IMG/VR virus record: IMGVR_UViG_3300035162_003120
Location: 1 to 26,643 of that record
DNA from: a virus
Direction: 5' to 3' (one strand)
Length of the DNA stretch: 26,643 nt
Shown in pieces: positions 36-26,602 of this stretch. The translations under genes were made by a program, and so were the position numbers. The notes under the pieces were generated by a model. The model saw nothing but the letters and a program-made list of their open reading frames with translations, had not been told where the DNA came from and did not search any database. Every line of letters begins with the position of its first letter. The stretch's first letter is position 1.

Positions 36-2423
36 ATGGGTATATATACTAACACCAATAGCGCTTTCCCTAGTCAAGTAGTTAGCGATGCAGAAAAAGC
101 AAGCTGGGAATACGGAACGCAGGTTGGGCAAGCTATCGAATATGAATGGTTTGGTCAAGGGCGTACTAATGGTAATAGATACTTAACTAGTTGGAATCAA
201 TTTCACCAATTAAGATTATATGCTCGAGGTGAGCAGTCAATACAAAAGTACAAAGATGAATTGTCTATTAATGGTGATTTATCTTATTTAAACTTAGACT
301 GGAAACCAGTACCAATTTTATCTAAGTTTGTAGACATTGTTGTTAACGGTATATCAGCTAAAGCTTACGATATTAAAGCTTATGCGCAAGACCCTCAATC
401 AATAAAGAAAAGAACCAATTACGCTTCTATGCTTTATGAAGATATGGTATCTAAAGAATATTTAGATAGTCTTCAACAAACGTTAGGTATTAATTTATAT
501 CAAACACCTAATATTGATACAGTACCTGAGTCTAAAGATGAACTAGAATTGCACATGCAGCTGAGTTACAAGCAGTCGGTTGAAATAGCAGAAGAAGAAG
601 CTATAGCATCTGTACTTGCTCAAAACAAATTTGATCTTACTAGAAGAAGATTAAATATGGATTTGACTGTACTAGGTATGGCAGTAGCTAAAACTAGTTT
701 TAATACAGCAGAAGGAATTACAGTTGATTATGTAGATCCTGCTTACGTTGTTTATTCTTACACGGAAGATCCAAACTTTGATGATGTGTATTATGTAGGA
801 GAAGTAAAGTCTATAACAATACCTGAGCTTAAAAAAGAGTTTCCAAACATAAGTGAGGAAGAGCTTGAAAGAATTCAAAAAATGCCAGGCAATAGCCAGT
901 ACATAACAGGCTGGGGTAACTACGACAAAAACACAGTTCAAGTATTGTACTTTGACTATAAAACATACCACAACCAGGTATTTAAAATAAAAGAAACACC
1001 ACAGGGATTAATGAAAGCTTTAGAAAAGCCTGATTCATTTAATCCGCCAGAAAATGATAACTTTGAAAGAGTGTCAAGATCTATTGAGGTATTATACAAT
1101 GGAGCTAAAGTATTAGGCTCTAATGAAATGATAAAATGGGAACTAGCAAAAAACATGTCTAGACCTACCGCTGATACCACCAAAGTGGAAATGAACTACG
1201 CTTTATGTGCACCTAGGATGTACAAAGGGCGTATCGAATCTATTGTGAGTAAATGTATTGGCTTTGCCGATATGATTCAGTTAACACATTTAAAACTGCA
1301 ACAAGTGTTATCTCGCATGGTGCCAGACGGTGTTTACTTAGATATGGACGGACTTGCAGAAGTTGATTTAGGTAACGGAACTAATTACAATCCAGCGGAA
1401 GCATTAAACATGTATTTCCAAACAGGGTCGATAGTTGGTAGATCACTTACTCAAGACGGTGATATGAATGCCGGCAAAGTGCCTATTCAAGAACTTAACA
1501 GCTCTTCGGGGCAGGCTAAAATTGGAGCATTAATTCAAACGTATCAATATTATTTACAAATGATACGAGATGTAACCGGTCTTAATGAAGCTAGAGATGG
1601 CACAGCTATGGATAAGAATTCACTTGTAGGACTGCAAAAGATGGCTGCTAACGCGTCCAATGTAGCAACTAGGCATATTAATCAGTCTAGCCTTTATATC
1701 ACTCTTAAACTAGCCGAAAACATTGCGCTTAAAATAGCTGATGCATTAGAATTTCCACTAACTAGAAGTGCTCTACAAAATTCTATATCTACATTTAACA
1801 TTAAAACTTTAGACGAAATAGTAAACTTAAATCTTCATGACTTTGGTATATTCTTAGAATTAGAACCAGACGACGAAGAGCAGGCACAATTAGAAAACAA
1901 TATACAAGTTGCTTTACAGCAAGGAGGTATTGATCTTGAAGATGCTATAGACGTAAGAGGTATTAAAAATCTTAAGCTAGCTAATCAAATGCTCAAGATA
2001 AAACGTAAATCTAAAGCTAAACAAGATCAAGCTAATCAACAGGCTAATATAGCGGCTCAAGGACAGTCGCAAGCTGATACAGCAGAAAAAACAGCAATGG
2101 CGGAAGTGCAAAAGCAAGAAGCTATAATGGGTGCAAATGTTCAGTTTGAACAGTCCAAAAATCAAATGGAAATTCAACGAATGGAAATAGCATCTCAATT
2201 AAAAGCTCAAGAAATGCAAGCTAAATTTCAATACGATATGCAGCTTAAACAACTTGAAGTTCAAAACACACAACAAAAAGAAGGTGCAATTGAAGATCGC
2301 AAAGATAGTCGCAGTAAAATGGAAGCTACACAACAAAGCGAACTTATAAGCCAAAGAAAAAACGACGGCTTACCTATAGACTTTGAAAATCAACCCGAGC
2401 AGGGTATGCAGGCTTTCATGTAG
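36..2423 (+). CDS. Phage portal protein
   Basis: This is probably the dodecameric portal at the unique capsid vertex, through which DNA is packaged and ejected. The 795-residue length suits the large portals of short-tailed phages. The body is mixed alpha/beta. A motif around residues 522-537 (GTAMDKNSLVGLQKMA) leads into long helices, as in portal stem and crown regions. From about residue 648 to 770 the protein becomes an uninterrupted Gln/Lys/Glu/Met-rich coiled coil, as expected of a portal barrel tail; the C-terminus near SELISQRKNDGLP resembles portals of marine Bacteroidota phages as I remember them. It is first in the head module, 31 bases ahead of the scaffold-like gene. The start follows an A/T-only leader without a Shine-Dalgarno block. 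The stop is TAG, one of only two in the window. The family call rests on recognition and gene order; fold detection would confirm it. Confidence 0.85.
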   Translation: MGIYTNTNSAFPSQVVSDAEKASWEYGTQVGQAIEYEWFGQGRTNGNRYLTSWNQFHQLRLYARGEQSIQKYKDELSINGDLSYLNLDWKPVPILSKFVDIVVNGISAKAYDIKAYAQDPQSIKKRTNYASMLYEDMVSKEYLDSLQQTLGINLYQTPNIDTVPESKDELELHMQLSYKQSVEIAEEEAIASVLAQNKFDLTRRRLNMDLTVLGMAVAKTSFNTAEGITVDYVDPAYVVYSYTEDPNFDDVYYVGEVKSITIPELKKEFPNISEEELERIQKMPGNSQYITGWGNYDKNTVQVLYFDYKTYHNQVFKIKETPQGLMKALEKPDSFNPPENDNFERVSRSIEVLYNGAKVLGSNEMIKWELAKNMSRPTADTTKVEMNYALCAPRMYKGRIESIVSKCIGFADMIQLTHLKLQQVLSRMVPDGVYLDMDGLAEVDLGNGTNYNPAEALNMYFQTGSIVGRSLTQDGDMNAGKVPIQELNSSSGQAKIGALIQTYQYYLQMIRDVTGLNEARDGTAMDKNSLVGLQKMAANASNVATRHINQSSLYITLKLAENIALKIADALEFPLTRSALQNSISTFNIKTLDEIVNLNLHDFGIFLELEPDDEEQAQLENNIQVALQQGGIDLEDAIDVRGIKNLKLANQMLKIKRKSKAKQDQANQQANIAAQGQSQADTAEKTAMAEVQKQEAIMGANVQFEQSKNQMEIQRMEIASQLKAQEMQAKFQYDMQLKQLEVQNTQQKEGAIEDRKDSRSKMEATQQSELISQRKNDGLPIDFENQPEQGMQAFM

Positions 2424-3653: not shown

Positions 3654-5129
3654 ATGAGTTTAACTCCTCAATTTGGTAGTTTAATTCCTTCGCAAGCGCA
3701 GGAACTATTAAATAGCAACTACCTACAATTTAACGGCGGTACCCCAGCAAATGGTGATTCAACCACTTTTGCTCAACAATACCTGCCAGAAGTATATGAA
3801 GCTGAAGTAGAGCGTTACGGAAATCGTACGTTATCTGGCTTTTTAAGAATGGTTGGCGCTGAAATGCCAATGTCAAGTGATCAAGTAATTTGGTCAGAAC
3901 AAAATAGATTACATATTAGCTACGACGGTGTTGATGTTGGCGGCGATGGCGCTGGCGCTGCTCCCGCTTTACAAAACCTTATTACAGTATTAGGTACTGT
4001 ATCAAACGTAGTATCAGTAAATGATACTGTAGTTATTTTAGAGCCTTCAAGTGGAAATGAAGCTAAATGTATTGTAACTGCTACAACTCCAGGCGTAGGC
4101 GGAACTTTCGTTGTTGCTCCATTTAACAATCAAGGTTTAGTTGCTGGTTCAGGATTTACTGCCGGAGCAGGGGCTAAAGTATTTGTATACGGTTCTTCTT
4201 ATGCGAAAGGTACTCAAATCAATCAGGCTGTTGCAAATGCACAAACTACTCAAACAAGAGTTTCTGTTGAACCTACTTTTACACAATATTCTAATTCTCC
4301 AATTATCCTAAGAAGCCAATACGTTGTTAATGGTTCTGATATGGCTCAAATTGGATGGGTTGAAGTTGCGACTGAAGATGGAACTTCTGGATACCTATGG
4401 TATTTGAAAGCTGAATCTGAAACTAGATTACGTTTTGAAGATTACTTAGAAATGAGTATGATTGAAAGTGAATTTAGCCAAATTGGTGGAAATGCTGGTA
4501 TAAGCACATCTCCAGGGTCTGAAGGATTATTTGCTGCTATTCAATCTCGTGGAAACGTAGAAGTAGGATTTACTGCTGCTGCTGGACTTGATGAATTTGA
4601 TGCTATCCTTAAGAATTTAGATACTCAAGGAGCAATTGAAGAGAATATGCTATTCTTACAGAGACAAACATCTCTTGATTTTGACGATATGTTAGCTTCT
4701 ATTTCTGGTGGATTCGCTGGAGGTACTGCTTTTGGATTATTTGAAAATTCTGAAGAAATGGCTTTAAACCTTGGATTCTCTGGATTCAGAAGAGGTTCTT
4801 ATGACTTTTACAAAACTGATTGGAAATACTTAAATGACGCTTCTACTCGTGGAGGAATTGTTGGAGTTAATTCCATTGAGGGCGTATTAATACCGGCTGG
4901 AACTTCTACAGTTTACGATCAAATCTTAGGAACTAATATCCGTAGACCTTTCTTACACGTTCGTTATAGAGCTTCACAAGCTGATGACAGACGTATGAAG
5001 TCTTGGTTAACTGGTTCTGCTGGTGGTGCATTTACTTCAACTCTTGACGCTATGGAAGTAAACTTCCTATCTGAAAGATGTTTAGTAACTCAAGCTGCTA
5101 ACAACTTTGTATTATTCAAAGGAATCTAA
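3654..5129 (+). CDS. Major capsid protein, HK97-fold type
   Basis: This is probably the main icosahedral shell protein. The 491-residue length fits HK97-fold capsid proteins of crAss-like and related marine phages. The N-terminal arm contains YLPEVYEAEVERYGNRTLSG and MVGAEMPMSSDQVIWSEQNR (about residues 43-90), which I recognise as typical of capsid proteins of this marine phage group. Residues about 107-187 form a Gly/Val/Thr-rich, beta-looking stretch interrupting the helical parts, probably an inserted or elaborated surface domain. The second half alternates long helices and strands and ends on a conserved-looking segment with ERCLVTQAANNFVLFKGI. Codon use tilts toward strongly used A/T-ending codons, as expected of a highly expressed gene. 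It is immediately followed by the best terminator hairpin in the window. The function is well supported by sequence style and the portal-scaffold-capsid order. Confidence 0.87.
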   Translation: MSLTPQFGSLIPSQAQELLNSNYLQFNGGTPANGDSTTFAQQYLPEVYEAEVERYGNRTLSGFLRMVGAEMPMSSDQVIWSEQNRLHISYDGVDVGGDGAGAAPALQNLITVLGTVSNVVSVNDTVVILEPSSGNEAKCIVTATTPGVGGTFVVAPFNNQGLVAGSGFTAGAGAKVFVYGSSYAKGTQINQAVANAQTTQTRVSVEPTFTQYSNSPIILRSQYVVNGSDMAQIGWVEVATEDGTSGYLWYLKAESETRLRFEDYLEMSMIESEFSQIGGNAGISTSPGSEGLFAAIQSRGNVEVGFTAAAGLDEFDAILKNLDTQGAIEENMLFLQRQTSLDFDDMLASISGGFAGGTAFGLFENSEEMALNLGFSGFRRGSYDFYKTDWKYLNDASTRGGIVGVNSIEGVLIPAGTSTVYDQILGTNIRRPFLHVRYRASQADDRRMKSWLTGSAGGAFTSTLDAMEVNFLSERCLVTQAANNFVLFKGI

Positions 5130-13922: not shown

Positions 13923-14612
13923 ATGGTAGGAGCAATAATAGGTGGTGCCGTTTCGATAGCTGGTGGGCTCTTTGCAGCAAGTGCAGCTAAAAAAAGAGCA
14001 GCGGCAGCAGCTAAAGAAAGACGACGCCTTACAAATAAATTAAATAATTTAGAAAAAAATAGACAAGCCATAATAAACCCTTACGATGGTATTGTAGATT
14101 TAAGCGGTATGATTAGCAATCCTTTTGCTAATTTATCTGTTGCTACTGCTGCGGCTGAAATGCAAATAGAAGAAGCTGATATATCTTTAGCTAACACATT
14201 AGATACTATACGCCAAACAGGTGGTGGTGCTGGTGGAGCTACTGCATTAGCTCAAGCGGCTTTAAAGTCTAAAAAAGGTGTTAGCGCAAGTATAGAAGCT
14301 CAAGAAAAAACTAATGAAGATAAAAGAGCGGCTGGCGAGCAAACTTTACAACAACAAAAAATGGCTGAAGCGCAAAGACTTCAACAAGCAGATGTGGCTG
14401 GTGAGCAGTTTATGTTTAGTACTAGAGAAGGCAGAGAAATACAACAATTAGATAGAACGGCAGCAATGATAGGGCAGGCTCGACAAGCAGAGGCAATGGC
14501 CACTCAAGATCAAGCTAGTGCTATAGGCGGAATGGTTAGTACACTGGGTAATATTGCTGCAACACCTGGCTTGCTAGGTAATCCAACATCACCACCACCC
14601 CCACCTAATTAA
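13923..14612 (+). CDS. Putative internal virion protein, T7 gp14-like
   Basis: This 229-residue protein begins with a hydrophobic Gly/Ala segment (residues 2-21, VGAIIGGAVSIAGGLFAASA), followed at once by an Ala/Lys/Arg stretch and a long helical, Gln/Ala/Glu-rich body, predicted to be largely coiled coil. A Gly-rich hinge lies near residue 100 (GGGAGGAT), and the tail ends in a run of five prolines. A short hydrophobic N-terminus with a helical body, encoded just downstream of the nozzle and upstream of two further proteins of increasing size, mirrors T7 gp14, which is ejected and forms an outer-membrane pore. It contains no cysteine. Similarity to T7 gp14 is architectural and positional; I see no sequence identity. 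It could also be a different minor virion protein. Confidence 0.5.
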   Translation: MVGAIIGGAVSIAGGLFAASAAKKRAAAAAKERRRLTNKLNNLEKNRQAIINPYDGIVDLSGMISNPFANLSVATAAAEMQIEEADISLANTLDTIRQTGGGAGGATALAQAALKSKKGVSASIEAQEKTNEDKRAAGEQTLQQQKMAEAQRLQQADVAGEQFMFSTREGREIQQLDRTAAMIGQARQAEAMATQDQASAIGGMVSTLGNIAATPGLLGNPTSPPPPPN

Positions 14613-14620
14613 TAATAAAA

Positions 14621-15721
14621 ATGGAAAACAACAATATACTTCAAAACTTATTTTTAAAGCAATTTAACGAAAGTAATGCCATTGCTTACAATCAAGCTTT
14701 TGTAGCTGGTGCTAGTGACTATAGCTTTCAGCTATTAGACAATGCTTACAGACTAGCTGGACAATATTATGCTAGCTTAAAAATAGCTATAGAATCTAAT
14801 AAGTGTCAATCTGAGCATTGTGCTTTAGAATTAAAACAATTAAAACAATTAGAAGAGGCTCCTCAGGCTTCTTTAGATTTTTTATCATCTATAATAAATG
14901 AGTTTAGTACAACGGAAGAGTCAAGCTTTGATCCTAATAATGACTATAGATATGCCGCTGCTAATAGCGTAATGACAGGTAAGCCTGGGTTTTCTAAAAC
15001 AGACGGATACGGTGTTTATTTAGATTTGCTACAAGATGGATCTCAGCAAATAGCTTTTTATGGACCTGCTTTTGTAATTCCGTTAATTATAAATAATTCT
15101 TCATTAAACGCTTTGCTAGATTCAGATACATCTCTTGTAGTTTCTACACCAGATATAGGTGCTGAAATGTTATTGCTTTTACCTGAAACAGGTTTGTTTG
15201 CGCAAGAAATGATTAATGAAAATAAAGAATTAAAAGCTACCGCTAAAATAAGCGAAGAGTTTGTAATGAAAAATGCAGACGGAAGTTTTGATTATGAAAT
15301 TGTAGACTTAGGAAACAATCAAGGTAAAAACGTTCTTAAGTATGACATGGATAAAATTGAACAAAAGGTTACTCCTTTTATAAACGCTGAAGTAGCTGGT
15401 TTAATGAGCTCTGAGCAAGACGTAATTGCAGCGTGGAACGTTTATATATCTAAAGATACAAGTGCTAGTGAGGACGCCCAAATGGCTCAGGATGCTAATG
15501 CGGGCGACTCAAGCTGGAGTTACGAATTAGATTTACCATTGCAACAAGAAAAGAAAGTTTTATTTGAAACAAAATACAAAGAATACTTTATGAATAATTA
15601 TCTAAAACAATTTACTACTGAACAATTACCAACAGTTAAAGAAGATGCTGCGGTTTTTAATTTAGCAGAAGCTAAGCAAGCAGAAGCTCAAAAGTTTTTA
15701 AAAGATAATAATTTAAATTAA
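14621..15721 (+). CDS. Putative internal virion protein, T7 gp15-like by position
   Basis: This 366-residue protein is mostly helical and acidic with no family I recognise. Residues 1-100 are helical, with the only two cysteines close together (C62 and C67, in the segment KCQSEHC). Residues about 140-175 form a short strand-rich part (GVYLDLLQDGSQQIAFYGPA). The remainder is Glu/Lys/Asp-rich helix. It has no signal peptide, membrane segment or enzyme motif. It sits between the gp14-like gene and the giant ejection-type gene, with 8- and 5-base gaps, so all three are almost certainly cotranscribed. By analogy with T7 gp15 it would help form the periplasmic part of an ejection conduit. That role comes from gene order only; an accessory of the giant protein is equally possible. 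Confidence 0.4.
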   Translation: MENNNILQNLFLKQFNESNAIAYNQAFVAGASDYSFQLLDNAYRLAGQYYASLKIAIESNKCQSEHCALELKQLKQLEEAPQASLDFLSSIINEFSTTEESSFDPNNDYRYAAANSVMTGKPGFSKTDGYGVYLDLLQDGSQQIAFYGPAFVIPLIINNSSLNALLDSDTSLVVSTPDIGAEMLLLLPETGLFAQEMINENKELKATAKISEEFVMKNADGSFDYEIVDLGNNQGKNVLKYDMDKIEQKVTPFINAEVAGLMSSEQDVIAAWNVYISKDTSASEDAQMAQDANAGDSSWSYELDLPLQQEKKVLFETKYKEYFMNNYLKQFTTEQLPTVKEDAAVFNLAEAKQAEAQKFLKDNNLN

Positions 15722-15726
15722 ATTAA

Positions 15727-18700
15727 ATGAACGAATTAGAAAAATTTGCAGCATCAATACCTTCTCCAGTAAGCAGAGAAAAAAGAATTCAATTAATTAA
15801 AGATTGGAAAATAAAAAACAACTGGGACAAAAAAGTTTCTGAAGTCTCACAGAAAGCCTGGGAAGGAGAATCTACAGAAATAGTAAAGATAGACCCTGTT
15901 GTGGAGAAGACTGCACCTGCACCAGGGAAAACAAAAAGCACGTCAAAACCTTTAAATTCTGGGGATTCGAAATCGGATGGATCTTCAGAAAAGCCTAATC
16001 AAGGAAATATTGGTTATGCTCTTAGTTGGAATGATAGAATTTACACAGCAGAAGAAATTGAAAAAAATCTTTTAGGAACAAAAAACTGGAAAGAAGGATC
16101 GGTTAGACTTAACAAAAAAGGAGAAAAAGATGTTTTTGGAATTCCATCTACGATGGATCAATACATAAACTATATTAATGATCATACTAATAATGAAATA
16201 ACAACTCGCCCTTTAACAGTTGAAGAGCAATATGAATCTATTTCAAACGAAAGACCTAGCGCGTTTGTTACAGAAATTGATGAAATTGAAATTGGAGGCG
16301 TAAACTCCTACGATGCAAACATTAATGATGATATGGGCATTAATCTTTGGAGGCCTGGCAGCGAAGAAGCAAATGAGGCATTGCAAAGTGTTTATCCCGA
16401 GTCAGAAACTTTATATAATGAAATACAAAAAGGGAATGCTAGCGAAGTAACTACTTCATTAATAGGAACTGAAAATCCTTACACTGACGTCAATGCATAC
16501 GCTAGAGGTCAAATCGACTTAGACCAAAATAATTTATGGACTAATCGTAACCTTGTTGGTAGACAACTTACAGGAGCTTTTGGAAATTACCAAGGGGTTC
16601 CTTTAAGTAATTTAGATGGTAATGAAACTGCTTTTGATGTAAAAGAAAGAGTAAGAACTCAGCAGCAAATTAAAAATGAAATAGATCGTTTAAAAATAGA
16701 AATTGGCAATGCTAATGATGAGGCTGTTATTTCTGAATTAAACAGTAGGCTATCCGTGCTAGAAAGAGAGCTAGTCGAGGAGTTTGGCAGTTTAACTACA
16801 GTTAATGTACCGCATGCACTTGAATATAGAATTAAAAGAGAAGGTCAAAAAGCTAAAGAAAAATTTTTAGAAGAAGAAAAACTTAAACAAAAATCAACAA
16901 CTTCTAAGTCGGATATAAAAGATCCAAGAAAAGCAATATTAAATAGGGTTTTAGAACAAGGCCTTAATCATATAGGTACTGTAGAGCAAGAATTGGCTGG
17001 ACTTGAAAGAGAATTAGAAACCTCAGTTATAAGTAATGAAAGACGAGATAAGGTTGAAAAGCGCATAAAAGAAATAGAAGAAGAGCGCAATTTTTTTGGC
17101 GGAGGGCGTCTTAAAAATGATTTTGGTGGGAAGCTTTACGACAAAAACACGGGTAATATGGTGGATTTTGATAAAGCCGATGTAAAAGTAATTGAAACGC
17201 AGCAAAAAGCTGAAGATTTAGCAGAAACCACAGAGCTTAATGTATTAGAAGATAACTTATTAAATAGAAATTTTGAATTAGTAGGAATTGCAGAAGATTT
17301 TTTAGAGCTTCATAATGAAAATAAATATAAATATGACGTAGGAAAAACTTTAGAAAACAAATTGTTTGGGCCTGGAAGAGAAGAAAAAGATTTGGCTCTT
17401 ATTAATTACTTAATAAAAAACGGTCAACTTCCTAAAGATATATACAACTTAAGCGGAGATTCTCCTATTGCTCAATATTTTAATGATGCATTAGATGATT
17501 ACGAAGTAATCAATAAAGCAATACTAATTAATAGAAATCCTTTAACAGCTAAGCAAAAAAATTATGTTGATGAAGCAATTGATGGTGTTGTAAATATAAT
17601 TGGTAAAAATATTACAACTAAGCAAGAAAATCAAATGCTTTTTATAGATGTTTTAAGAAGAGATGGAACGTTTGATGAAGAAGAATTAAAAGCATTTGAA
17701 ACAGCTTTAGAAGCAAATGCTGGCCAAAAAATAATGAAAGGAGTGCCTACTTTGTTTGCTTTTGGAGTTGAAATTGCATTAACTAGAAAATTATCTGGTA
17801 ATAAAATAGCAAAAGTTTTTAAATATTTAGATGATATAGCAATTAAATATTTTAAAGGCAATAAGTACATGAAAACTGCCATTAATGCTATAAGTAAAGG
17901 TTTAACAGAAGGATCTGAATTTGCGGCCGCAACTGCTTTAAAAAACGTAGTTCTTAACGAAGATGAAAGTGTTGGCGAATCGTTTGCACAAGGTGGCGCT
18001 ATGGGCTTTGGGGGTACTTTTGGTAAAGCATTTTTTGGAGCTTTAAATAAAACAATGCTTAAATCCTCTAGCTACGGAAAACTAAATTATTATTTAGACA
18101 AAAGCGAAGTATACAAAAACTTTATAGCAAGCGCTCAAAGCGCTGCGGGTGGTGCTACAGCTTATATTTCTGGAGGCGTTTTAATGGGAAATCAAAACCT
18201 GCATTATGAAGAGCTAACTACTACTTTTGTAGAAGAATGGTCTAAAATGTTTATATTAGGTAAGCTTCAAAAAGGTTTACGTGATCCAGGAGGAAGTATG
18301 AGAGCTTCTTACAGAAGAATGAGCAATGATATACTTGGCTTTTCAAACTTATCTTATAACTCTAAAAAAGGAGCAACTGCATTAAATGTAGATACAAAAA
18401 TTATATCAAACCCAACAGAAACTAGTAACGAACAAGTTGCTGCTGCTGCGCAAGCTAAAATTGATTCTATAGCAAAAGATGCAAAAGACGGTAAAATTAC
18501 TACTGAAGAATCTTTAATATTAATAAAGCAAGCTGCGCAAGCTAAAATGGCTCTTTTAAATCAAATTGGAATTAATCAAGCTAAAGCAGAAATACAAAGA
18601 GAAAGAAAAAGTGGCCAAGCTCCAACTGTAGCTGAAGAATATACAACTTTAAGTAAAATTAAAGGCGGGGAAAAACTAAACGCTAAAGACTCTCAAACAC

Positions 18701-21700
18701 TTTCTGAATTGCCTCCTGAGTTAATTTTAGAAAAACTAGGAATTGAATCTAGCACGGAAAGCTTAAGGCAAGCAAATGATATGATAAACCGAGAAAGCAC
18801 AATTCAAAATTTATTGAATGGTGGCAATGGTAAATTTGTTGTAACAGAGGCCGGATTTCAAGGTAAAATTATAGTTAAAGAAGGTCAATACAGAGTATCA
18901 AAAGATAATCCAAAGCTTAGAGAGGAAACTTACGAATTTTTAAATAAAAAATTTGCACTAAACGATTCATTAACTAAGTTAAAAAACATGAATACTTCTG
19001 GTATGTCCGTGCTAGAAAAAGAAACCTATAACGAAACTGTAAAAGAACAAGAAGCAGAACTTAGCAAATACCAAGAAGGAGGAGTTACTGAAAGTATTTT
19101 ACAAGGTAAATTACAAAAAGAAGCATTAAAAATATATGAAGCTGATGTAGCAAAATCTAAAGAATTAGCTAAAACCAATGTTAAAGGAGAAGTAGTAGAA
19201 TCTCTTACTAAACCGGAATTTCAAAAAGCATACGATGCTTCTGGCTTAAAAGCTAAAGACGTTAAAGATACCGTTGCTTTTATAGATCCAAATACTGGTA
19301 ATAGATTTATAAACAGGGAAAAAGCATTGGAAATTAAAAGTTTTAATGCTGCTACCCATGAAGATTTTCATGCAGTTACTTTAGATGTATTTAAAAATGC
19401 CGAAGGCAAGGTAACAGAAGAGGGGATAGCTATTATAGATAACATTGTAGGCTCTTTAAGCCCAAGACAACAAGAAATACTAAACAAAGAAGTAGAGTCA
19501 AGATACGATACCAAAAAGCCTAAAAACGAGTACGCTGAAGAATATCTAACGGTATTATCGGAGCTTATAAAAGACAAGGTTATTACTTTTAATAAAGGCA
19601 TTGGTGAAAAGCTGTTGGGCATGGTTCCTTTGTACAAAAAGAATGGTTTTAAAAATTTAGAAATAAACGCTAAAACAGGAGAAGGTATATTTGAAATGCT
19701 TAGAGGTTTAGCAGAAGGAAAAAAAGGCGCTGTAGAGGCGGCTGATAAATTTGCTAAAGAAGCGGCTGAAAGTAAAACTTTTGAAACAAAAACAGATACA
19801 GCATCTGAATCTAAAGCTAAAATTACAGAAGAAAACTTAAAAATAGCAAAAGAAAACTTAAAAGTTGAAGAAGAAATAATTAAAATTGGGGCTTTTAAAG
19901 TGTCTGAGTTAAAAGGTGAAAATAGAACAAGAATTGTTAAAAAGCTAACTGATTTAAACCTTGGCCTTGTTGTAAAACTAGCCGCAAAAGCAGCTAATAA
20001 TCCAGAAATAGCTCCGTTAGAAAAAGGAAAAAGAAAAACATTTGAAGATTTTAAACAAGGCTATTCTGAACAGTTAACTAAAATTATAAATAACTACGAA
20101 CCAATAGTAGTATCTGGTAAAGAAAATTTAGGTAAAAGAATTCCTTTTGGCGCTTATTTACAGCAAAGACTAAAGCTTAGATATGGTAATGTTTTAACTG
20201 ATCTTAAAAAAGGAGAAATTGAAACCACTTCTATAGACACTAAAGAAGCCAAAGAAATTAAAGACACTTCAAGTAGCTCTACTAAACAAGCTATAGAAGT
20301 AAACACAGATGTTAAACTTGTTGACAATATTAAAATTAACAAGGAACCTTTAAGTACTGAGTTTAAAGATAAAGTTAGAAAATTTGTAACTGAACAATTA
20401 GAAAGTGTAGATATTAATAGCGAACAATTTAGAAAACAAGTTTTTAAGCCGTCTAAAGCTTTTGTAGATTTTATTGTTAAAGATTTAATTGGCAGTCCAA
20501 AGAAATTTAAACAATTTATACTGGAAAATCCTACTTTTTACAAAGGATTAAACATAACTGAATTAGTTGCAATTGATGAGGGTAGGGCAGGAATGAAGCC
20601 TCCGCAGCCTAGATTGTTTACAGAATTTAACAGAAGGCTCACAAAGCAAGCCGATATTGAAAAGTTTATGATGCAAGGAAGAATTCCTTATCTTACAACT
20701 ACTCAACAAAAAAATGGTGCAGATCTTTATAATAGGCTTAAGCCGTTACAGCCAGCATTAAATCAACACTTTTTTGGCAGTATTTCTGATAGCAGTAAAA
20801 GTAATAGAAAGCGCGCTGCAGCCAGAGTCATTGCTTCTAAATTTATGGCAGAAGCAATTCCAAGCACAGAGGCTTTTAAAGCTAAAACTTCTGTAGATAA
20901 GGCTAGGATAGCAGAAAGGCTACAAGTTTCTCAAGAAGCTAAGTTTGCTAAAGCTAAAGTAATGGACAGCAAAAAGGAAATAATCATTAAAGCGGGTTAT
21001 GTTCCGGTTGAAAGAGGTAAAGTAGGCGTAGATCGAACCAAAGATTTTGTTTTAGGTGCAGCTGCAGATATATTTGGCGTAGAAGTAGTAAGAGCTCTTA
21101 TTGCTACCAATAAAGTATTAAGTACAGCGGGTAACAGAGCCTATAGCTACAACAAAGATGGAACAATTAAAAGTGGAGGCGGTGCAGTTGGGGGTGGTTA
21201 TAATTTTATTTCAAACGCTTTAACATTAGCAAACGTTTACGGCCCAGGTGGTAAAAAAGCTGACGCAAAAACAATAAAAGATACAAAAGCATTATTAGAG
21301 GCTGGTGAATTAGGAGATTTAGCTGTATTGCAAAAAGAATTAAGTGCAACAAAAAAAGAAGGAATATATAACGCTAAAGATATAGCTGCAATAAAAAGAT
21401 TTATTGCTCATAAAAACGCAAAAGGCGGAATAGAAAACAATACCAAAGATATTGCCGAAATTAATAGAGGTAAAAAATTAATGCTAGACGGCTTTAGAAA
21501 AATTTATGAAGCAGACAATAGTACTTTTCCTTTAATAGCTGAAGTTTCTTATAGTTTTAATTCAAACAAAAACCCGTTTAGAGACTTAGCCACATTAGTG
21601 GGAGGTATGGAAGGGTTAAAGAAAGGCACAAAAACATGGGAAGAGCATATGATGCAATTCGGTATGTATACAAATGAAATGCTTAAAGCTCTTAAAGGGT

Positions 21701-24700
21701 CTGCAAAAGGATGGTCTTCATTTGTAAATTGGTCAAACAAAAATTACTATCAATTAAAGCTGAGCAAAGAAGCTTCTGATTTAATAGATCAAAACTTTAA
21801 AGGTATTGAAGGCTTAGAGGATTGGAATGCTAAATCTCAATTTCATCCACTTCAAAGAGAAAGTTTTAAAATTGCTGAAAAAACTGGAGATTATTCCAAG
21901 GTAATAGATCCAATGATTCGCGCTTACAATGAATACGTTATGTTAAACCCTTTTTCTATAACAAGATTAGGTGTTACAGATGCTAAAAGATATTTAAACA
22001 ATGTAGAAATATCTAAAGCTGACCAAAAAAACTTAACTCTTCAAAATGAGGCTGCTAAATTAATCAATGAAGTAATACGGTCAGAAGCTGGCTTTTTAAA
22101 AGAGGGTGATTATAATTATGTTACTAGAAAACAAGCAGGCGAGCGATTATTGGCAAGCAAAAATTTAGCTGAAGGTCAAAAAGGTGCGGCTAAATTAGCA
22201 AATGAAATAATGACTCCTGACATTAAATATAACAAACCTATACCTGTTAAAAAAGGAATTGATGCTTTAGCTAAAACAGATAAGGCTTTAGATTATGGCA
22301 GAAAATTAAATCCAGAAATTAAAAAAGCAAGAGTATTTGATTTTGATGACACATTAGCTAGAACTAAAAGCAATGTATTATATACAATGCCTGACGGGCG
22401 TACCGGCAAATTAACAGCTACTGAATTTGCTTTAAAGGCAGGAGAAATGGAAAAACAAGGCGTTGTATTTGATTTTTCTGAATTTAGCAAAGTAATGGAC
22501 GGCAAAAAAGGACCATTGTTTGAGCTAGCTAAAATGATGAATGAAAGTCCAGGCAAAAGAGATATGTTTGTTTTAACAGCAAGACCTCAAGATGCTGCTG
22601 GTCCTATTAAAGAATTTTTAGAATCATTAGGTCTTAATATACCTATTGAAAACATAACTGGATTAGCTGATGGAACTCCTCAGGCTAAGGCTGGCTGGAT
22701 TATGGGTAAAGCAGCTAAAGGTTATAATGATTTTTATTTTGCAGATGATGCAATTAAAAACGTTAAAGCAGTTAAAAATGTTTTAGATGTTTTAGATGTT
22801 AAAGGAACAGTGCAGCAAGCTAAATTTAGCAAAGCTAAAACTTATGATACTATTGTAAATGAAATGATAAAAGAGTCTGCTGGCATAGAAGTTTATAAAA
22901 AATATTCTGCAGCTAGAGCTAAAACAGTTGGTGCAAGTAAGGGTAGATTTAATTTCTTTATACCGGCAAGCGCAGAAGATTTTACAGGGTTATTATATAA
23001 AATGTTAGGTAAAGGTAAAACTGGTGATGCTCAAATGGCATTTCTTAAAACCAATTTACTTGATACTTATGACAGAGCTGAATCAGCTGTAACGCAAGCT
23101 AAAATAGCCGCGGCAAATGACTTTAAAGCTTTAAAATCAAACTTAAAAACTTTGCCCAGTAGTTTAAGCAAGCCTACAGGTATTGGTGGATTTACATTTT
23201 CGCATGCAGTTCGTGTTGCTGCTTGGACAGCTCAAGGTATGGAAATACCAGGATTGTCTAAAAGAGACATTGCAGAATTAAACGACTTTGTAAATAACAA
23301 TGCGGAGCTTAAAGTATTTACTAACGAATTACTTAAAATTCAAAAAGGTAAACTATATCCTGAGCCAGGCAAAGAATGGCTGGGTGGTAACATTACTAGC
23401 GATATTATAAATGATATTAACAAAGTTAATAGAGCGGAATATCAACAAGAATTTAGAGAAAACGTAGATATTATATTTTCTGAAGCTAACATGAACAAAA
23501 TGGAAGCTGCTTACGGAACTAGATGGCGCGAAGCTATGGAAGATTCTTTAAGAAGAATGAAGTCGGGTAGTAATAGACCTCCAGGAGGCAATAGAATTAC
23601 AGATGGTATACTTGATTGGTTAAATAACTCTGTAGGTGCTGTAATGTTCTTAAACACACGTTCAGCACTCTTACAGACTATATCTGCGGTAAACTTTGTA
23701 AACTGGGGTGATAATAATATAGCTAAAGCTGGTTTAGCATTTGCTAACCAAAAGCAGTATTGGAAAGATTATATGACTCTTATGAATTCTGATTATTTAG
23801 TTGAGCGTAGAAACGGACTTAAGATAAATGTAAGTGAATCAGAAATTGCTGATGCAGTAAGAGATTCGGGTAATAAGCCTAAAGCAGCTATAGCATTTTT
23901 ACTTAGCAAAGGATTTGTTATGACAAGATTTGCAGATAGTTTTGCAATTGCTTCAGGTGGTGCTACTTTTTATAGAAACAGAGTTAAATCTTTGTTAGGC
24001 AAAGGCATGGAACAAAAAGCTGCAGAAGCACAAGCTTTTGAAGATTTTAGAGCTATTGCAGAGGAAAGTCAGCAATCTAGTAATCCAAACAGAATTAGTG
24101 CACAGCAAGCATCAGCCGCAGGTCGTGTTGTACTAGCTTGGGCAAACACGCCAATGCAATATGCTCGTATACAAAAAAGAGCAGGTCAAGATCTTATAAA
24201 TGGTCGTGGTGACTGGAAAACAAATGTATCTAAAATAGTTTATTACGGAGCTATACAAAATTTAATATTTAATTCTTTACAACAAGCAGTGTTTGCTTTA
24301 GCCTTCGGAGAAGATGATGACGAAGAACAGCAAAGCGCTAAGAAAAATGAAAAAATATCTAGAGTAGCAAATGGTATGATTGATTCTCAGCTTAAAGGAT
24401 TAGGAATAGGAGGAGCTGCAGTGGTTGCATTAAAAAGCACTTTAATGGAATTAGGTAAGCAGCATGCTAAAGACAGACCCGCTTACGAAGAAGCTGTATT
24501 TGATTTGCTAAGTTTTTCACCGCCTCTTGGGTCTAAAGTTCAAAAAATAAACGGAGGGCTTAGAAGCTTTAGCTGGAACATGAAAGATATCCAAGAAAAA
24601 GGTTTTAGTTTAGACAATCCTTCTTATTTAGCGGGAGCGCAAATAACGACTGGACTTACTAATGTTCCGCTTGATAGAGTTGTTAAAAAAATTAATAGTA

Positions 24701-25248
24701 TGCGAGGACTTGTTAATGAACAATCTTCTCTTTGGCAAAAAGTTGCTTTAGGTCTTGGTTGGTCTACTTGGGATGTAGGTCTTGGTTATTACGGAGGATT
24801 TGACGCAGCAAAAGTTTTAACACCTAAAGAGGAAAGAGTTAAAGAAATTAACGATATGAAAAAGTTAACTAAAACACAAGAGCAAGTTGATATGCTGCTT
24901 GATTTAGGGTTAACTAAAAAAGAAATAAAAGCATTAGGTAAAGAGCAATCCAGAGTTGAAAAAATTATAGAGCTGCAAAATGCAGAGGCTAAACCTAAAG
25001 AAGAAGCTAAGGTTAAAGAAGAAATAAAAGAAGAAACAAAACCAACACTAGAAGTAAAAGCAAAACCTAAAACCGAAAGCGTCGAAAGAAGGCTTAGAAG
25101 ACAATTTGATTCTATTAAAGATGAAAACAAACCTGATCAAGTAAAAACATTACTTAAGTTTGGGTTAACCAAAAAAGAAATAAGAGAATTACAATACGAA
25201 AAAAATAGAGTAAACAAAATATTAGAATTAATGGAAAAAAATAAATAA
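15727..25248 (+). CDS. Giant polyvalent, probably ejected virion protein with metallopeptidase and HAD phosphatase domains
   Basis: This 3173-residue protein occupies the T7 gp16 position. Residues about 1-600 are charged, with coiled coils near 309-350 and 420-460. Residues about 660-825 contain Gly/Ala-rich hydrophobic segments. A zinc metallopeptidase motif HEDFH lies at 1211-1215, with a Glu-rich helix at 1268-1272 as possible third ligand. Residues about 2195-2365 carry all HAD motifs: D2205 and D2207 (DFDDT), T2284 (LTAR), K2321 and D2340-D2341. Residues about 2480-3030 form a conserved-looking, partly hydrophobic domain (for example YYGAIQNLIFNSLQQAVFAL), resembling large-polyvalent-protein-associated domains. 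Two copies of a 31-residue motif end the protein. I read no cysteine in it. Such phage giants are packaged and delivered with the DNA; which substrates the two enzymes act on is unknown. The start at 15727 follows an A/T leader 5 bases after the previous stop. Confidence 0.75.
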   Translation: MNELEKFAASIPSPVSREKRIQLIKDWKIKNNWDKKVSEVSQKAWEGESTEIVKIDPVVEKTAPAPGKTKSTSKPLNSGDSKSDGSSEKPNQGNIGYALSWNDRIYTAEEIEKNLLGTKNWKEGSVRLNKKGEKDVFGIPSTMDQYINYINDHTNNEITTRPLTVEEQYESISNERPSAFVTEIDEIEIGGVNSYDANINDDMGINLWRPGSEEANEALQSVYPESETLYNEIQKGNASEVTTSLIGTENPYTDVNAYARGQIDLDQNNLWTNRNLVGRQLTGAFGNYQGVPLSNLDGNETAFDVKERVRTQQQIKNEIDRLKIEIGNANDEAVISELNSRLSVLERELVEEFGSLTTVNVPHALEYRIKREGQKAKEKFLEEEKLKQKSTTSKSDIKDPRKAILNRVLEQGLNHIGTVEQELAGLERELETSVISNERRDKVEKRIKEIEEERNFFGGGRLKNDFGGKLYDKNTGNMVDFDKADVKVIETQQKAEDLAETTELNVLEDNLLNRNFELVGIAEDFLELHNENKYKYDVGKTLENKLFGPGREEKDLALINYLIKNGQLPKDIYNLSGDSPIAQYFNDALDDYEVINKAILINRNPLTAKQKNYVDEAIDGVVNIIGKNITTKQENQMLFIDVLRRDGTFDEEELKAFETALEANAGQKIMKGVPTLFAFGVEIALTRKLSGNKIAKVFKYLDDIAIKYFKGNKYMKTAINAISKGLTEGSEFAAATALKNVVLNEDESVGESFAQGGAMGFGGTFGKAFFGALNKTMLKSSSYGKLNYYLDKSEVYKNFIASAQSAAGGATAYISGGVLMGNQNLHYEELTTTFVEEWSKMFILGKLQKGLRDPGGSMRASYRRMSNDILGFSNLSYNSKKGATALNVDTKIISNPTETSNEQVAAAAQAKIDSIAKDAKDGKITTEESLILIKQAAQAKMALLNQIGINQAKAEIQRERKSGQAPTVAEEYTTLSKIKGGEKLNAKDSQTLSELPPELILEKLGIESSTESLRQANDMINRESTIQNLLNGGNGKFVVTEAGFQGKIIVKEGQYRVSKDNPKLREETYEFLNKKFALNDSLTKLKNMNTSGMSVLEKETYNETVKEQEAELSKYQEGGVTESILQGKLQKEALKIYEADVAKSKELAKTNVKGEVVESLTKPEFQKAYDASGLKAKDVKDTVAFIDPNTGNRFINREKALEIKSFNAATHEDFHAVTLDVFKNAEGKVTEEGIAIIDNIVGSLSPRQQEILNKEVESRYDTKKPKNEYAEEYLTVLSELIKDKVITFNKGIGEKLLGMVPLYKKNGFKNLEINAKTGEGIFEMLRGLAEGKKGAVEAADKFAKEAAESKTFETKTDTASESKAKITEENLKIAKENLKVEEEIIKIGAFKVSELKGENRTRIVKKLTDLNLGLVVKLAAKAANNPEIAPLEKGKRKTFEDFKQGYSEQLTKIINNYEPIVVSGKENLGKRIPFGAYLQQRLKLRYGNVLTDLKKGEIETTSIDTKEAKEIKDTSSSSTKQAIEVNTDVKLVDNIKINKEPLSTEFKDKVRKFVTEQLESVDINSEQFRKQVFKPSKAFVDFIVKDLIGSPKKFKQFILENPTFYKGLNITELVAIDEGRAGMKPPQPRLFTEFNRRLTKQADIEKFMMQGRIPYLTTTQQKNGADLYNRLKPLQPALNQHFFGSISDSSKSNRKRAAARVIASKFMAEAIPSTEAFKAKTSVDKARIAERLQVSQEAKFAKAKVMDSKKEIIIKAGYVPVERGKVGVDRTKDFVLGAAADIFGVEVVRALIATNKVLSTAGNRAYSYNKDGTIKSGGGAVGGGYNFISNALTLANVYGPGGKKADAKTIKDTKALLEAGELGDLAVLQKELSATKKEGIYNAKDIAAIKRFIAHKNAKGGIENNTKDIAEINRGKKLMLDGFRKIYEADNSTFPLIAEVSYSFNSNKNPFRDLATLVGGMEGLKKGTKTWEEHMMQFGMYTNEMLKALKGSAKGWSSFVNWSNKNYYQLKLSKEASDLIDQNFKGIEGLEDWNAKSQFHPLQRESFKIAEKTGDYSKVIDPMIRAYNEYVMLNPFSITRLGVTDAKRYLNNVEISKADQKNLTLQNEAAKLINEVIRSEAGFLKEGDYNYVTRKQAGERLLASKNLAEGQKGAAKLANEIMTPDIKYNKPIPVKKGIDALAKTDKALDYGRKLNPEIKKARVFDFDDTLARTKSNVLYTMPDGRTGKLTATEFALKAGEMEKQGVVFDFSEFSKVMDGKKGPLFELAKMMNESPGKRDMFVLTARPQDAAGPIKEFLESLGLNIPIENITGLADGTPQAKAGWIMGKAAKGYNDFYFADDAIKNVKAVKNVLDVLDVKGTVQQAKFSKAKTYDTIVNEMIKESAGIEVYKKYSAARAKTVGASKGRFNFFIPASAEDFTGLLYKMLGKGKTGDAQMAFLKTNLLDTYDRAESAVTQAKIAAANDFKALKSNLKTLPSSLSKPTGIGGFTFSHAVRVAAWTAQGMEIPGLSKRDIAELNDFVNNNAELKVFTNELLKIQKGKLYPEPGKEWLGGNITSDIINDINKVNRAEYQQEFRENVDIIFSEANMNKMEAAYGTRWREAMEDSLRRMKSGSNRPPGGNRITDGILDWLNNSVGAVMFLNTRSALLQTISAVNFVNWGDNNIAKAGLAFANQKQYWKDYMTLMNSDYLVERRNGLKINVSESEIADAVRDSGNKPKAAIAFLLSKGFVMTRFADSFAIASGGATFYRNRVKSLLGKGMEQKAAEAQAFEDFRAIAEESQQSSNPNRISAQQASAAGRVVLAWANTPMQYARIQKRAGQDLINGRGDWKTNVSKIVYYGAIQNLIFNSLQQAVFALAFGEDDDEEQQSAKKNEKISRVANGMIDSQLKGLGIGGAAVVALKSTLMELGKQHAKDRPAYEEAVFDLLSFSPPLGSKVQKINGGLRSFSWNMKDIQEKGFSLDNPSYLAGAQITTGLTNVPLDRVVKKINSMRGLVNEQSSLWQKVALGLGWSTWDVGLGYYGGFDAAKVLTPKEERVKEINDMKKLTKTQEQVDMLLDLGLTKKEIKALGKEQSRVEKIIELQNAEAKPKEEAKVKEEIKEETKPTLEVKAKPKTESVERRLRRQFDSIKDENKPDQVKTLLKFGLTKKEIRELQYEKNRVNKILELMEKNK
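19294..19596 (+). other. Zinc-metallopeptidase domain inside the giant protein (residues about 1190-1290)
   Basis: The zincin motif HExxH appears as H1211-E1212-D1213-F1214-H1215 on a predicted helix (AATHEDFHAVTLDVF), preceded by a strand (TVAFIDPNTGNRFIN) as is usual for small phage peptidases of this style. About 55 residues downstream lies NEYAEEYLTVLSEL (residues 1267-1280), offering E1268, E1271 or E1272 as a gluzincin-type third zinc ligand. Such domains in polyvalent proteins could cut the protein itself, partner virion proteins or host targets after injection. The motif is seen directly; the substrate is unknown. Confidence 0.6.
22309..22821 (+). other. HAD-superfamily phosphatase domain inside the giant protein (residues about 2195-2365)
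   Basis: All four HAD motifs are present in order. Motif I is ARVFDFDDTLA, with nucleophile D2205 and acid/base D2207. Motif II is MFVLTARP, with T2284. Motif III is K2321 in the segment PQAKAGW. Motif IV is DFYFADDAIKN, with D2340 and D2341 for magnesium. The 75-residue insert between motifs I and II is helical, a C1-type cap position. The residues needed for catalysis look intact, so an active phosphatase or nucleotidase is likely; the substrate cannot be read from sequence. Confidence 0.75.
24883..24975 (+). repeat. C-terminal 31-residue motif of the giant protein, copy 1
   Basis: Residues 3053-3083 contain VDMLLDLGLTKKEIKAL, then KEQSRVEKIIEL. The same pattern recurs in residues 3138-3168 after a Lys/Glu-rich linker. 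It looks like a small helix-turn-helix or three-helix unit. Confidence 0.7.
25138..25230 (+). repeat. C-terminal 31-residue motif of the giant protein, copy 2
   Basis: Residues 3138-3168 contain VKTLLKFGLTKKEIREL, then YEKNRVNKILEL, matching copy 1 at the invariant core GLTKKEI and at L-L, R-V and K-I-[IL]-E-L. The DNA copies have diverged at many third positions, so the duplication is old and kept at protein level. Confidence 0.7.
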
Positions 25249-25401: not shown

Positions 25402-25674
25402 ATGAATCAAAAATCACCGCTTCACATTAAAGAAGCCGCTTACGAAAAACAAAATCGTAAAATGCGTAAAGAAAATCCTGGAATGGGTAAAAGACTTACG
25501 TCTGGAACAAGCCCACGAAGAGTATCATTTGCATGTAGATTTGCGGGTATGGCTGGGGCAATGAAAGATGCCAAAGGAGAACCAACAAGAAAAGCTATGG
25601 CTTTAAAAAAATGGGGTTTTGGTAGCGTTGCTGCTGCTAAAAGCTTTTGTAGTAAACATAAATCTAAAAAATAA
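25402..25674 (+). CDS. Small basic phage protein with RRxSF...GEPTRKA...KKWGF motif
   Basis: This 90-residue, very basic protein is of unknown function. It contains RRVSFACRFAGMAGAMKDAK (residues 39-58), then GEPTRKAMALKKWGFGS (residues 59-75) and ends KSFCSKHKSKK, with cysteines at C45 and C83. I recognise the RR-x-SF-[AC]-R...GEPTRKAxALKKWG pattern as a widespread small-protein motif in marine phages (possibly DUF6321-like; this label is uncertain). It occurs here next to a relative of the other common small marine motif (the gene at 26348). The high charge would suit nucleic-acid or virion packing, but no role is established. The gene starts 1 base after the holin-like stop codon. Confidence 0.65.
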   Translation: MNQKSPLHIKEAAYEKQNRKMRKENPGMGKRLTSGTSPRRVSFACRFAGMAGAMKDAKGEPTRKAMALKKWGFGSVAAAKSFCSKHKSKK

Positions 25675-25678
25675 AAAT

Positions 25679-25984
25679 ATGGAATCAGGATTATATAAAA
25701 AATACATAGGATCGCCTTGTAAAGAGATTGACCCTAAAAAGACGTATCAAGATTCAGTTCAAACACTGCACAAAAAAGGCTACGAAAAATATTTTAATAA
25801 GCAAGTGCTTGGATACAGAGTTTCTGATGATGATGGACAAACGTTTAATCAAATTCCTCCTCAAAAAGATCCAAAAAAAATTAAAAGCTTGAAAGAGTAT
25901 GCTTATGCTATGGAAATTGCTAAAGGCGGATCGGTAACTAAAGACGGCAAAACAGCAGCGCAATTAGCTAGAGAAAATAAATAA
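25679..25984 (+). CDS. Hypothetical small phage protein, 101 residues
   Basis: I do not recognise this 101-residue, Lys-rich, soluble protein. It has predicted beta strands in the middle (GYRVSDDDGQTFNQIPP) and a helical Ala/Lys-rich end (YAYAMEIAKGGSVTKDGKTA). It has a single cysteine (C14). The reading frame stays open 60 bases further upstream into the preceding gene, but I choose 25679: it follows an A/T-only leader like all neighbours, avoids an overlap of 56 bases, and removes an improbable Leu/Val-rich 20-residue extension. Its stop overlaps the start of the peptidase gene (TAATG), so the two are probably coupled. Lying between holin-like and endolysin-like genes, it might be a lysis accessory, but nothing in the sequence demonstrates that. 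Confidence 0.6.
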   Translation: MESGLYKKYIGSPCKEIDPKKTYQDSVQTLHKKGYEKYFNKQVLGYRVSDDDGQTFNQIPPQKDPKKIKSLKEYAYAMEIAKGGSVTKDGKTAAQLARENK

Positions 25985-26337
25985 TGAAATATTTTAAATT
26001 AGAAGAATTTGATTCGTCAGACGAACCTGGCAGTGGTGCTAAAATGCATGAAGAAATTTTGCATATGTTAGACGCTGTTAGAAAAGAATACGGCAAACCT
26101 ATTAAAATAAACTCCGGTTACCGAACAGAAGCTAGAAATAAAAAAATAGGCGGTGTACCAAACTCTTCTCATTTAAAAGGGTTGGCTGTTGATATATCTT
26201 GCAAAAGCTCAAAAGATAGATTTGCTTTAATAAATTTATTATTAAAAGCAGGCTTTAACAGAATAGGTATAGCGGGATCGTTTATACACGTAGACATAGA
26301 TAAAAACAAATCTCAGAATGTAATCTGGGGATATTAA
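25984..26337 (+). CDS. M15-family peptidase, probable endolysin
   Basis: This 117-residue minimal D-Ala-D-Ala-type (VanY/M15) zinc peptidase cuts peptide cross-bridges or stem peptides of peptidoglycan. Its hallmarks are INSGYRTEARN (residues 42-52), NSSHLKGLAVDIS (residues 60-72) with zinc ligands H63 and D70, and SFIHVDID (residues 99-106) with H102 as third ligand. The protein is all catalytic domain: it has no signal peptide, membrane anchor or cell-wall-binding domain, as is common for endolysins of phages infecting Gram-negative-type hosts. The start is coupled to the previous gene by TAATG. Release would depend on a holin, for which the gene at 25248 is the candidate. A virion-borne role is possible but less likely, given the small-gene lysis context. 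Confidence 0.85.
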   Translation: MKYFKLEEFDSSDEPGSGAKMHEEILHMLDAVRKEYGKPIKINSGYRTEARNKKIGGVPNSSHLKGLAVDISCKSSKDRFALINLLLKAGFNRIGIAGSFIHVDIDKNKSQNVIWGY

Positions 26338-26347
26338 ATATAAATTA

Positions 26348-26602
26348 ATGGCAAAATTAAAAAAGGGAAGACTATCTGAAATAGTTAAAGAATTACAAGG
26401 GGCTTCTAAAATGCACTTAAAGCAATCAAAAGAAATTGATAGCCATATTGAAGATATGGAATCACCTTTGGAATTAAAAGACGCATGCTATAAAAAAGTA
26501 GTTGCAAGATATGGCTCTAAGAATTCGGCGTATCGAAGCGGAGCTATGGCTAAATGCAGAAAAGTAGGTGCTGCTAACTGGGGTAATAAAAGCAAAAAGT
26601 AA
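26348..26602 (+). CDS. Small basic phage protein with CYKKV...SAYRSGAMAKCRKVGAANWG motif
   Basis: This 84-residue basic protein has a helical N-terminus (KGRLSEIVKELQGASK, then a His/Asp/Glu-containing helix) and a C-terminal block with two cysteines: C47 in DACYKKVVARYGSKNSAYRS, and C70 in GAMAKCRKVGAANWG. I recognise the CYxKVxxRYxxxxSAYxSGAxxKCRKVGAxNWG pattern as recurrent in marine phages, with unknown function. The paired cysteines 22 residues apart, with a His-poor surround, could be a disulphide or, across a dimer, a metal site. The stop codon overlaps the next start (TAATG). It lies 10 bases after the M15 peptidase gene, so it is part of the same transcript. Confidence 0.65.
   Translation: MAKLKKGRLSEIVKELQGASKMHLKQSKEIDSHIEDMESPLELKDACYKKVVARYGSKNSAYRSGAMAKCRKVGAANWGNKSKK

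Follow-up and report, generated by a model that had tools for sequence, protein, structure and literature searches.

A zincin metallopeptidase and a HAD phosphatase with a Pnkp-like fold share one chain in a giant phage protein at the ejection-protein position

Polyvalent proteins of phages and conjugative elements join many unlike enzymatic domains in a single chain and are encoded among virion genes, and their commonest domain is a zincin metallopeptidase (MPTase) with an HExxH motif and a downstream Glu (Iyer et al. 2017, PMC5512222). The N4 virion RNAP also contains a zincin MPTase, and processing by the MPTase is the published model for polyvalent proteins (PMC5512222). A further point of comparison is the T7 gp14/gp15/gp16 ejection cassette, which is ordered small, medium, and large, with the last and largest gene lying after those for portal, capsid, and tail. 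T7 gp16 has weakly hydrophobic regions on either side of a large central part, the latter extending into the host cytoplasm (review PMC8954989). T4 Pnkp (PseT), finally, combines a kinase with a HAD-fold phosphatase, the kinase preceding the phosphatase.

The window analyzed here, meaning the whole 26.6-kb virus fragment, contains an intact, uninterrupted reading frame at 15727..25248 (+) that encodes a giant protein of 3173 aa in the ejection-protein slot. An initial annotation, made from the sequence, had reported HEDFH at residues 1211–1215 and a complete HAD set in this one chain. Every residue that it quoted is in place (H1211, E1212, H1215, D2205, D2207, T2284, K2321, D2340, and D2341); the zincin is real and the HAD is intact. 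Like the polyvalent proteins, the giant carries several unlike catalytic domains in a single chain encoded among virion genes, in support of the polyvalent-protein reading offered at the outset. Pfam and NCBIfam profiles run against the whole giant gave zero matches.

Gene order around the giant is conserved (portal, capsid, a ~230-aa protein, a ~480-aa protein, and the giant), and in 100 relatives the giant comes after the ~230-aa and ~480-aa proteins. In the window, the portal protein (36..2423, +; phrog_6547, E 2.3e-138) is related to those of flavobacterial phages, and the virion structural protein in the capsid-protein slot (3654..5129, +; phrog_13704, E 3.4e-88) matches Elemovirus, Maribacter phage Panino, and MW202828 at 40–48%; overall, the virion genes of the window are related to those of Elemovirus, Cellulophaga, Maribacter, and Tenacibaculum phages. 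A 229-aa protein occupies the T7 gp14-like slot (13923..14612, +), two genes upstream of the giant, and its family profile matches gp099 of phage phi40:1 (E 1.4e-10), to which it is homologous. The T7 gp15-like slot, kept in 100 relatives with a median of 479 aa, holds a 366-aa protein (14621..15721, +) for which neither the isolates nor T7 yielded a detectable homologue. In phi40:1, gp099, gp100, and gp101 are annotated as virion proteins from MS/MS proteomics; gp101 has the slot in common with the giant and no detectable sequence similarity to it. Because this slot counterpart was detected by MS/MS and the ~230-aa neighbor is homologous, the giant is, by analogy, likely to be present in virions, as its initial description as a virion-type protein implied.

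The accompanying placement of the giant in the T7 gp16 position is supported as a statement of synteny only: hhalign profile comparisons of gp14, gp15, and gp16 with all three slots detected no homology, and gp16-like proteins diverge strongly. Those listed in the review span 609–1337 aa (PMC8954989), compared with 2300–3450 aa in most relatives of the giant. No Pfam match was found in the giant for the N-terminal transglycosylase, a phage-specific feature of gp16 that is absent from P22-like members. Also comparable are the flavobacterial podovirus giants (Elemovirus gp18, phi40:1 gp101, Panino CDS0069, and the MW202828 giant), which occupy the same slot alongside related portal and capsid-slot proteins but have neither this HAD nor a significantly similar C-terminal region. 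Elemovirus gp18, annotated as "structural protein," does have the same zincin (hhalign probability 91%, HEIFH at 1543). Since counterparts in this slot carry other annotations (DUF3293 in Elemovirus gp18, L039; tRNA methyltransferase in Panino CDS0069, L003), the slot seems to swap enzyme cargo. Downstream of the giant, two small ORFs (25402–25674 and 26348–26602) each match phrog_727 and phrog_3477, and an endolysin-like peptidase (25984–26337, phrog_894) lies between them.

Relatives of the giant were found on at least 567 IMG/VR contigs. Genome collections added 13, without exception on MAG contigs, and direct tblastn of two giant segments or the C-terminus of a relative gave no match in annotated phages. 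The giant is a member of a large and seemingly undescribed marine phage protein family. HExxH and DxDDT were each present in 93 of 99 full-length relatives, and 81 of the 99 had both, with HExxH inside a zincin match; the combination, first presented as a one-off, is a family trait. An alignment of 16 relatives shows strong conservation over the final ~850 residues, comprising the HAD and a helical region, and a mosaic over the first ~2100. The helical C-terminal region (residues 2400–3020; 22924..24786, +), seen in an AF2 model, shows 43–80% identity to most relatives and constitutes, together with the HAD, the most conserved portion of the family. A few relatives lack one enzyme or the other (for example, HExxH is missing from L011 and L072, and little or nothing of the HAD is left in L050 and L051, which kept the C-terminus). 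Zincin and HAD therefore look like common cargo that can be dispensed with, attached to a C-terminal core that is conserved.

The flanking "hydrophobic domains" of the initial annotation recur in relatives as segments lying about 1550 to 1250 positions before the HAD motif and 600 to 700 after it, and flank the zincin–HAD part in many of them; their hydrophobicity is weak, however, both in residues 668–686 (17728..17784, +; KD 1.11) and in residues 2842–2860 (24250..24306, +; KD 1.15). In this respect the giant resembles gp16. In relatives, the divergent region at residues ~1874–2180 (21346–22266) has a GK motif and a Glu-His pair that hardly varies; searches assigned it to no known family, and PDB sequence profiles gave nothing convincing. 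The C-terminal tail (residues 3047–3173; 24865..25245, +) includes two similar ~50-aa units, as judged by eye in the translation.

The zincin-type metallopeptidase domain extends over residues ~1165–1340 (19219..19746, +) and matches its family profile with an HMM E of 2.2e-39. Besides HEDFH (19357–19371, +), it contains E1272 (19540–19542, +), the third zinc ligand, which the initial annotation had not listed and which is as invariant as HExxH itself. Among 25 divergent zincins, in which mean column identity was 24%, the only invariant columns were H, E, H, and this downstream E. An HExxH arises by chance in 0.4% of shuffles of the giant, and 0.25 copies would be expected over 99 relatives, compared with 93 found, one each. 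The structural model places helices at both motifs, with pLDDT about 58–83 in the zincin part and low overall confidence; it had no significant Foldseek match in the PDB, and PDB sequence profiles gave nothing convincing. Pfam matches of individual members were set aside as mostly chance, and a search for relatives with the zincin alone led to one locus, L035. HExxH and the Glu of the following helix match the published definition (PMC5512222), and the sequence makes a strong case that this domain is the MPTase of polyvalent proteins. As the commonest polyvalent domain, also present in the N4 virion RNAP, it renders the peptidase half of the proposed peptidase–phosphatase combination ordinary.

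The HAD phosphatase domain covers residues ~2195–2376 (22309..22854, +). Its six catalytic residues, forming motifs I–IV (DxD, T/S, K, and DD), lie at 22339–22347 (D2205/D2207), 22576 (T2284), 22687 (K2321), and 22744–22749 (D2340–D2341), all on the + strand. DxD[DG]T alone occurs in 6% of shuffles, but the full set is invariant in every relative whose HAD is complete (109/109), and R2286, in the TAR motif, does not vary either. An AF2 model of the HAD and C-terminal region (mean pLDDT 72) aligned with T4 Pnkp at Z 13.4 (rmsd 2.6 over 128 residues). T4 Pnkp or Pnkp1 filled the top seven structural rows (Z 12.0–13.4), the next row scoring 11.2, within a fold similarity to many HADs at Z 9–13. 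phrog_415, a polynucleotide kinase family, was both the best and the commonest PHROG, matching 35/41 members and the window with E 1.8e-6; DUF2608 matched 34/41. Plain Foldseek listed acid phosphatases first, with none below E 0.001; the preference for Pnkp comes from the second structural aligner, phrog_415, and the nested kinase described below. The likeness of the HAD to Pnkp is one of fold and of weak profile matches. Profile comparison of the HAD with T4 PseT gave an alignment over motif I only (46%), and PDB sequence profiles gave nothing convincing. For R176 and D254, which we take to be the substrate-specific residues of the T4 phosphatase, the family has no clear conserved counterpart, and by eye only R213 matches, at invariant R2286; for this reason, we do not treat functional end-healing as certain. 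The domain has a Pnkp-like fold with a complete catalytic set, and nucleic-acid ends would be its likeliest substrate.

Nine distinct relatives (L063, L078, L080, L082–L084, L041, L043, and L035) carry a ~195-aa P-loop kinase between HAD motifs I and II, at the cap site corresponding to 22369..22404 (+) in the window, which itself contains no kinase. Its motifs are a Walker A (GGPGAGKT in most, GGAGSGKS in L035), NQD, and an Arg-rich lid. The nested kinase profile matched residues 2–145 of the T4 PseT kinase (hmmsearch E 9e-4; hhalign E 9e-6, probability 83%), bacterial Pnkp TIGR04075 (2.4e-5), and structures 4gp7/4jst (6e-4), which are labelled metallophosphoesterase and represent a bacterial Pnkp kinase domain. 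In T4 Pnkp the kinase comes first in the chain, with the phosphatase after it, whereas in this family most members have no kinase and the others carry it within the HAD cap, and the Pnkp-type enzyme sits within a virion-type giant; it is unusual for a phosphatase to enclose its partner kinase. In a C-terminal tree, the kinase falls in three separate lineages, that of L063 being sister to the clade of the window, a distribution that could reflect one gain with many losses or repeated transfer.

Kinases similar to the nested one occur in hypothetical proteins of Pelagibacter phage HTVC008M, the Methylophilales Melnitz phages, and Agrobacterium phage Atu_ph07. In a neighboring clade (L062, L064–L069, and L072), the same cap site holds a different insert of 30–40 aa, and L064 and L065 have DFDYT in place of DFDDT. 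The records of 16 relatives contained no RNA ligase PF09414; PF09511 matched nothing, controls included, and is therefore uninformative here. A short T4-PNK-like query returned PNKs as common in phages, a result that carries no weight for the giant. The main text of PMC5512222 mentions neither phosphatases nor the HAD superfamily, and a HAD with a nested kinase appears not to be described there; nor did we find a HAD, a Pnkp-like fold, or a nested kinase in an ejection-type giant in the open-licence papers searched. The peptidase half was already known, and these three features in such a giant appear to be new.

The best overall explanation, in which our confidence is evenly divided, is a polyvalent ejection protein whose zincin processes the giant itself and whose HAD acts on 3′ nucleic-acid ends. 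The virus would be a podovirus with flavobacterial phages as its relatives, and the giant, encoded where the largest ejection protein belongs, would be an ejection-type component of its virion; synteny with an MS/MS-proven virion protein suggests packaging of the giant in the head and its delivery along with the DNA. If T7 gp16 is a guide, the two weakly hydrophobic regions may insert in the inner membrane, with zincin and HAD reaching the cytoplasm. The domain identity of the zincin (H1211, E1212, H1215, and E1272) predicts an active Zn peptidase, and its likeliest job would be to cleave the giant at the junctions of its domains, either inside the head or following entry. The HAD, with its Pnkp-like fold, would be active as a Mg-dependent phosphatase, with D2205 as nucleophile, D2207 as acid/base, and T2284, K2321, and D2340/D2341 completing the site; most probably it would take phosphate off 3′ ends cut by host defense nucleases or during entry. 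In relatives with the nested PNK-like kinase, a two-step end-healing enzyme would be completed. The domain identities are strong, and substrate and timing are what we infer from them.

An ejected, polyvalent giant whose HAD targets host nucleotides, second messengers, or phosphoproteins, the Pnkp likeness being that of the general small-cap HAD fold, is rather improbable. Other HADs (Nir2, phosphoserine phosphatase, and acid phosphatases) do reach Z 9–11, acid phosphatases are the nominal top rows of Foldseek, DUF2608 is nearly as frequent a match as phrog_415, and the giant of the window is without a kinase; against this, Pnkp takes the top seven structural rows, a PNK family is the best and commonest PHROG, and the kinase nested in relatives is PNK-like. 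The action on host nucleotides or proteins that was first suggested is, given that fold and that kinase, less likely than a nucleic-acid-end substrate.

It is distinctly unlikely that both enzymes serve assembly only, the zincin acting inside the head to mature the giant or partner proteins, the HAD serving as a structural or regulatory module, and neither having a role in the host. Processing of P1 DdrB precedes its packaging (PMC5512222), and the loss of the HAD from a few relatives in which the C-terminus is retained (L050, L051) would fit such a role, but a catalytic set complete in every full HAD would be unneeded for a purely structural one. Least probable of all is that the giant is a non-virion late protein such as a scaffold or tail-assembly chaperone, because its phi40:1 slot counterparts are MS/MS-detected virion proteins and Elemovirus gp18 is annotated as structural.

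A more specific form of the polyvalent ejection-protein reading, which we offer tentatively and consider doubtful as it stands, is a Pnkp-like end-healing enzyme, in some members with the kinase in its cap, delivered by a widespread marine phage family at genome entry inside an ejection protein, freed by the zincin of that protein, and undoing host tRNA- or DNA-cutting defenses before phage gene expression. In T4, cleaved host tRNA is repaired only once Pnkp and ligase have been made in the cell; a virion-carried end-repair enzyme, if true, would be active from the first moment of infection. The family is common and has enzymes of a size that suits assays, and it makes testable the idea that ejection proteins carry enzymes and do not serve only as DNA channels. 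In the family giants, the motif [AVILM][KR][FY]S occurs 140 times compared with 56 in shuffles (2.5-fold) and clusters near the edges of the HAD, with the copy of the window at residues 2365–2368, at the end of that domain. The motif is in part inherited sequence, but is a candidate zincin cleavage linker.
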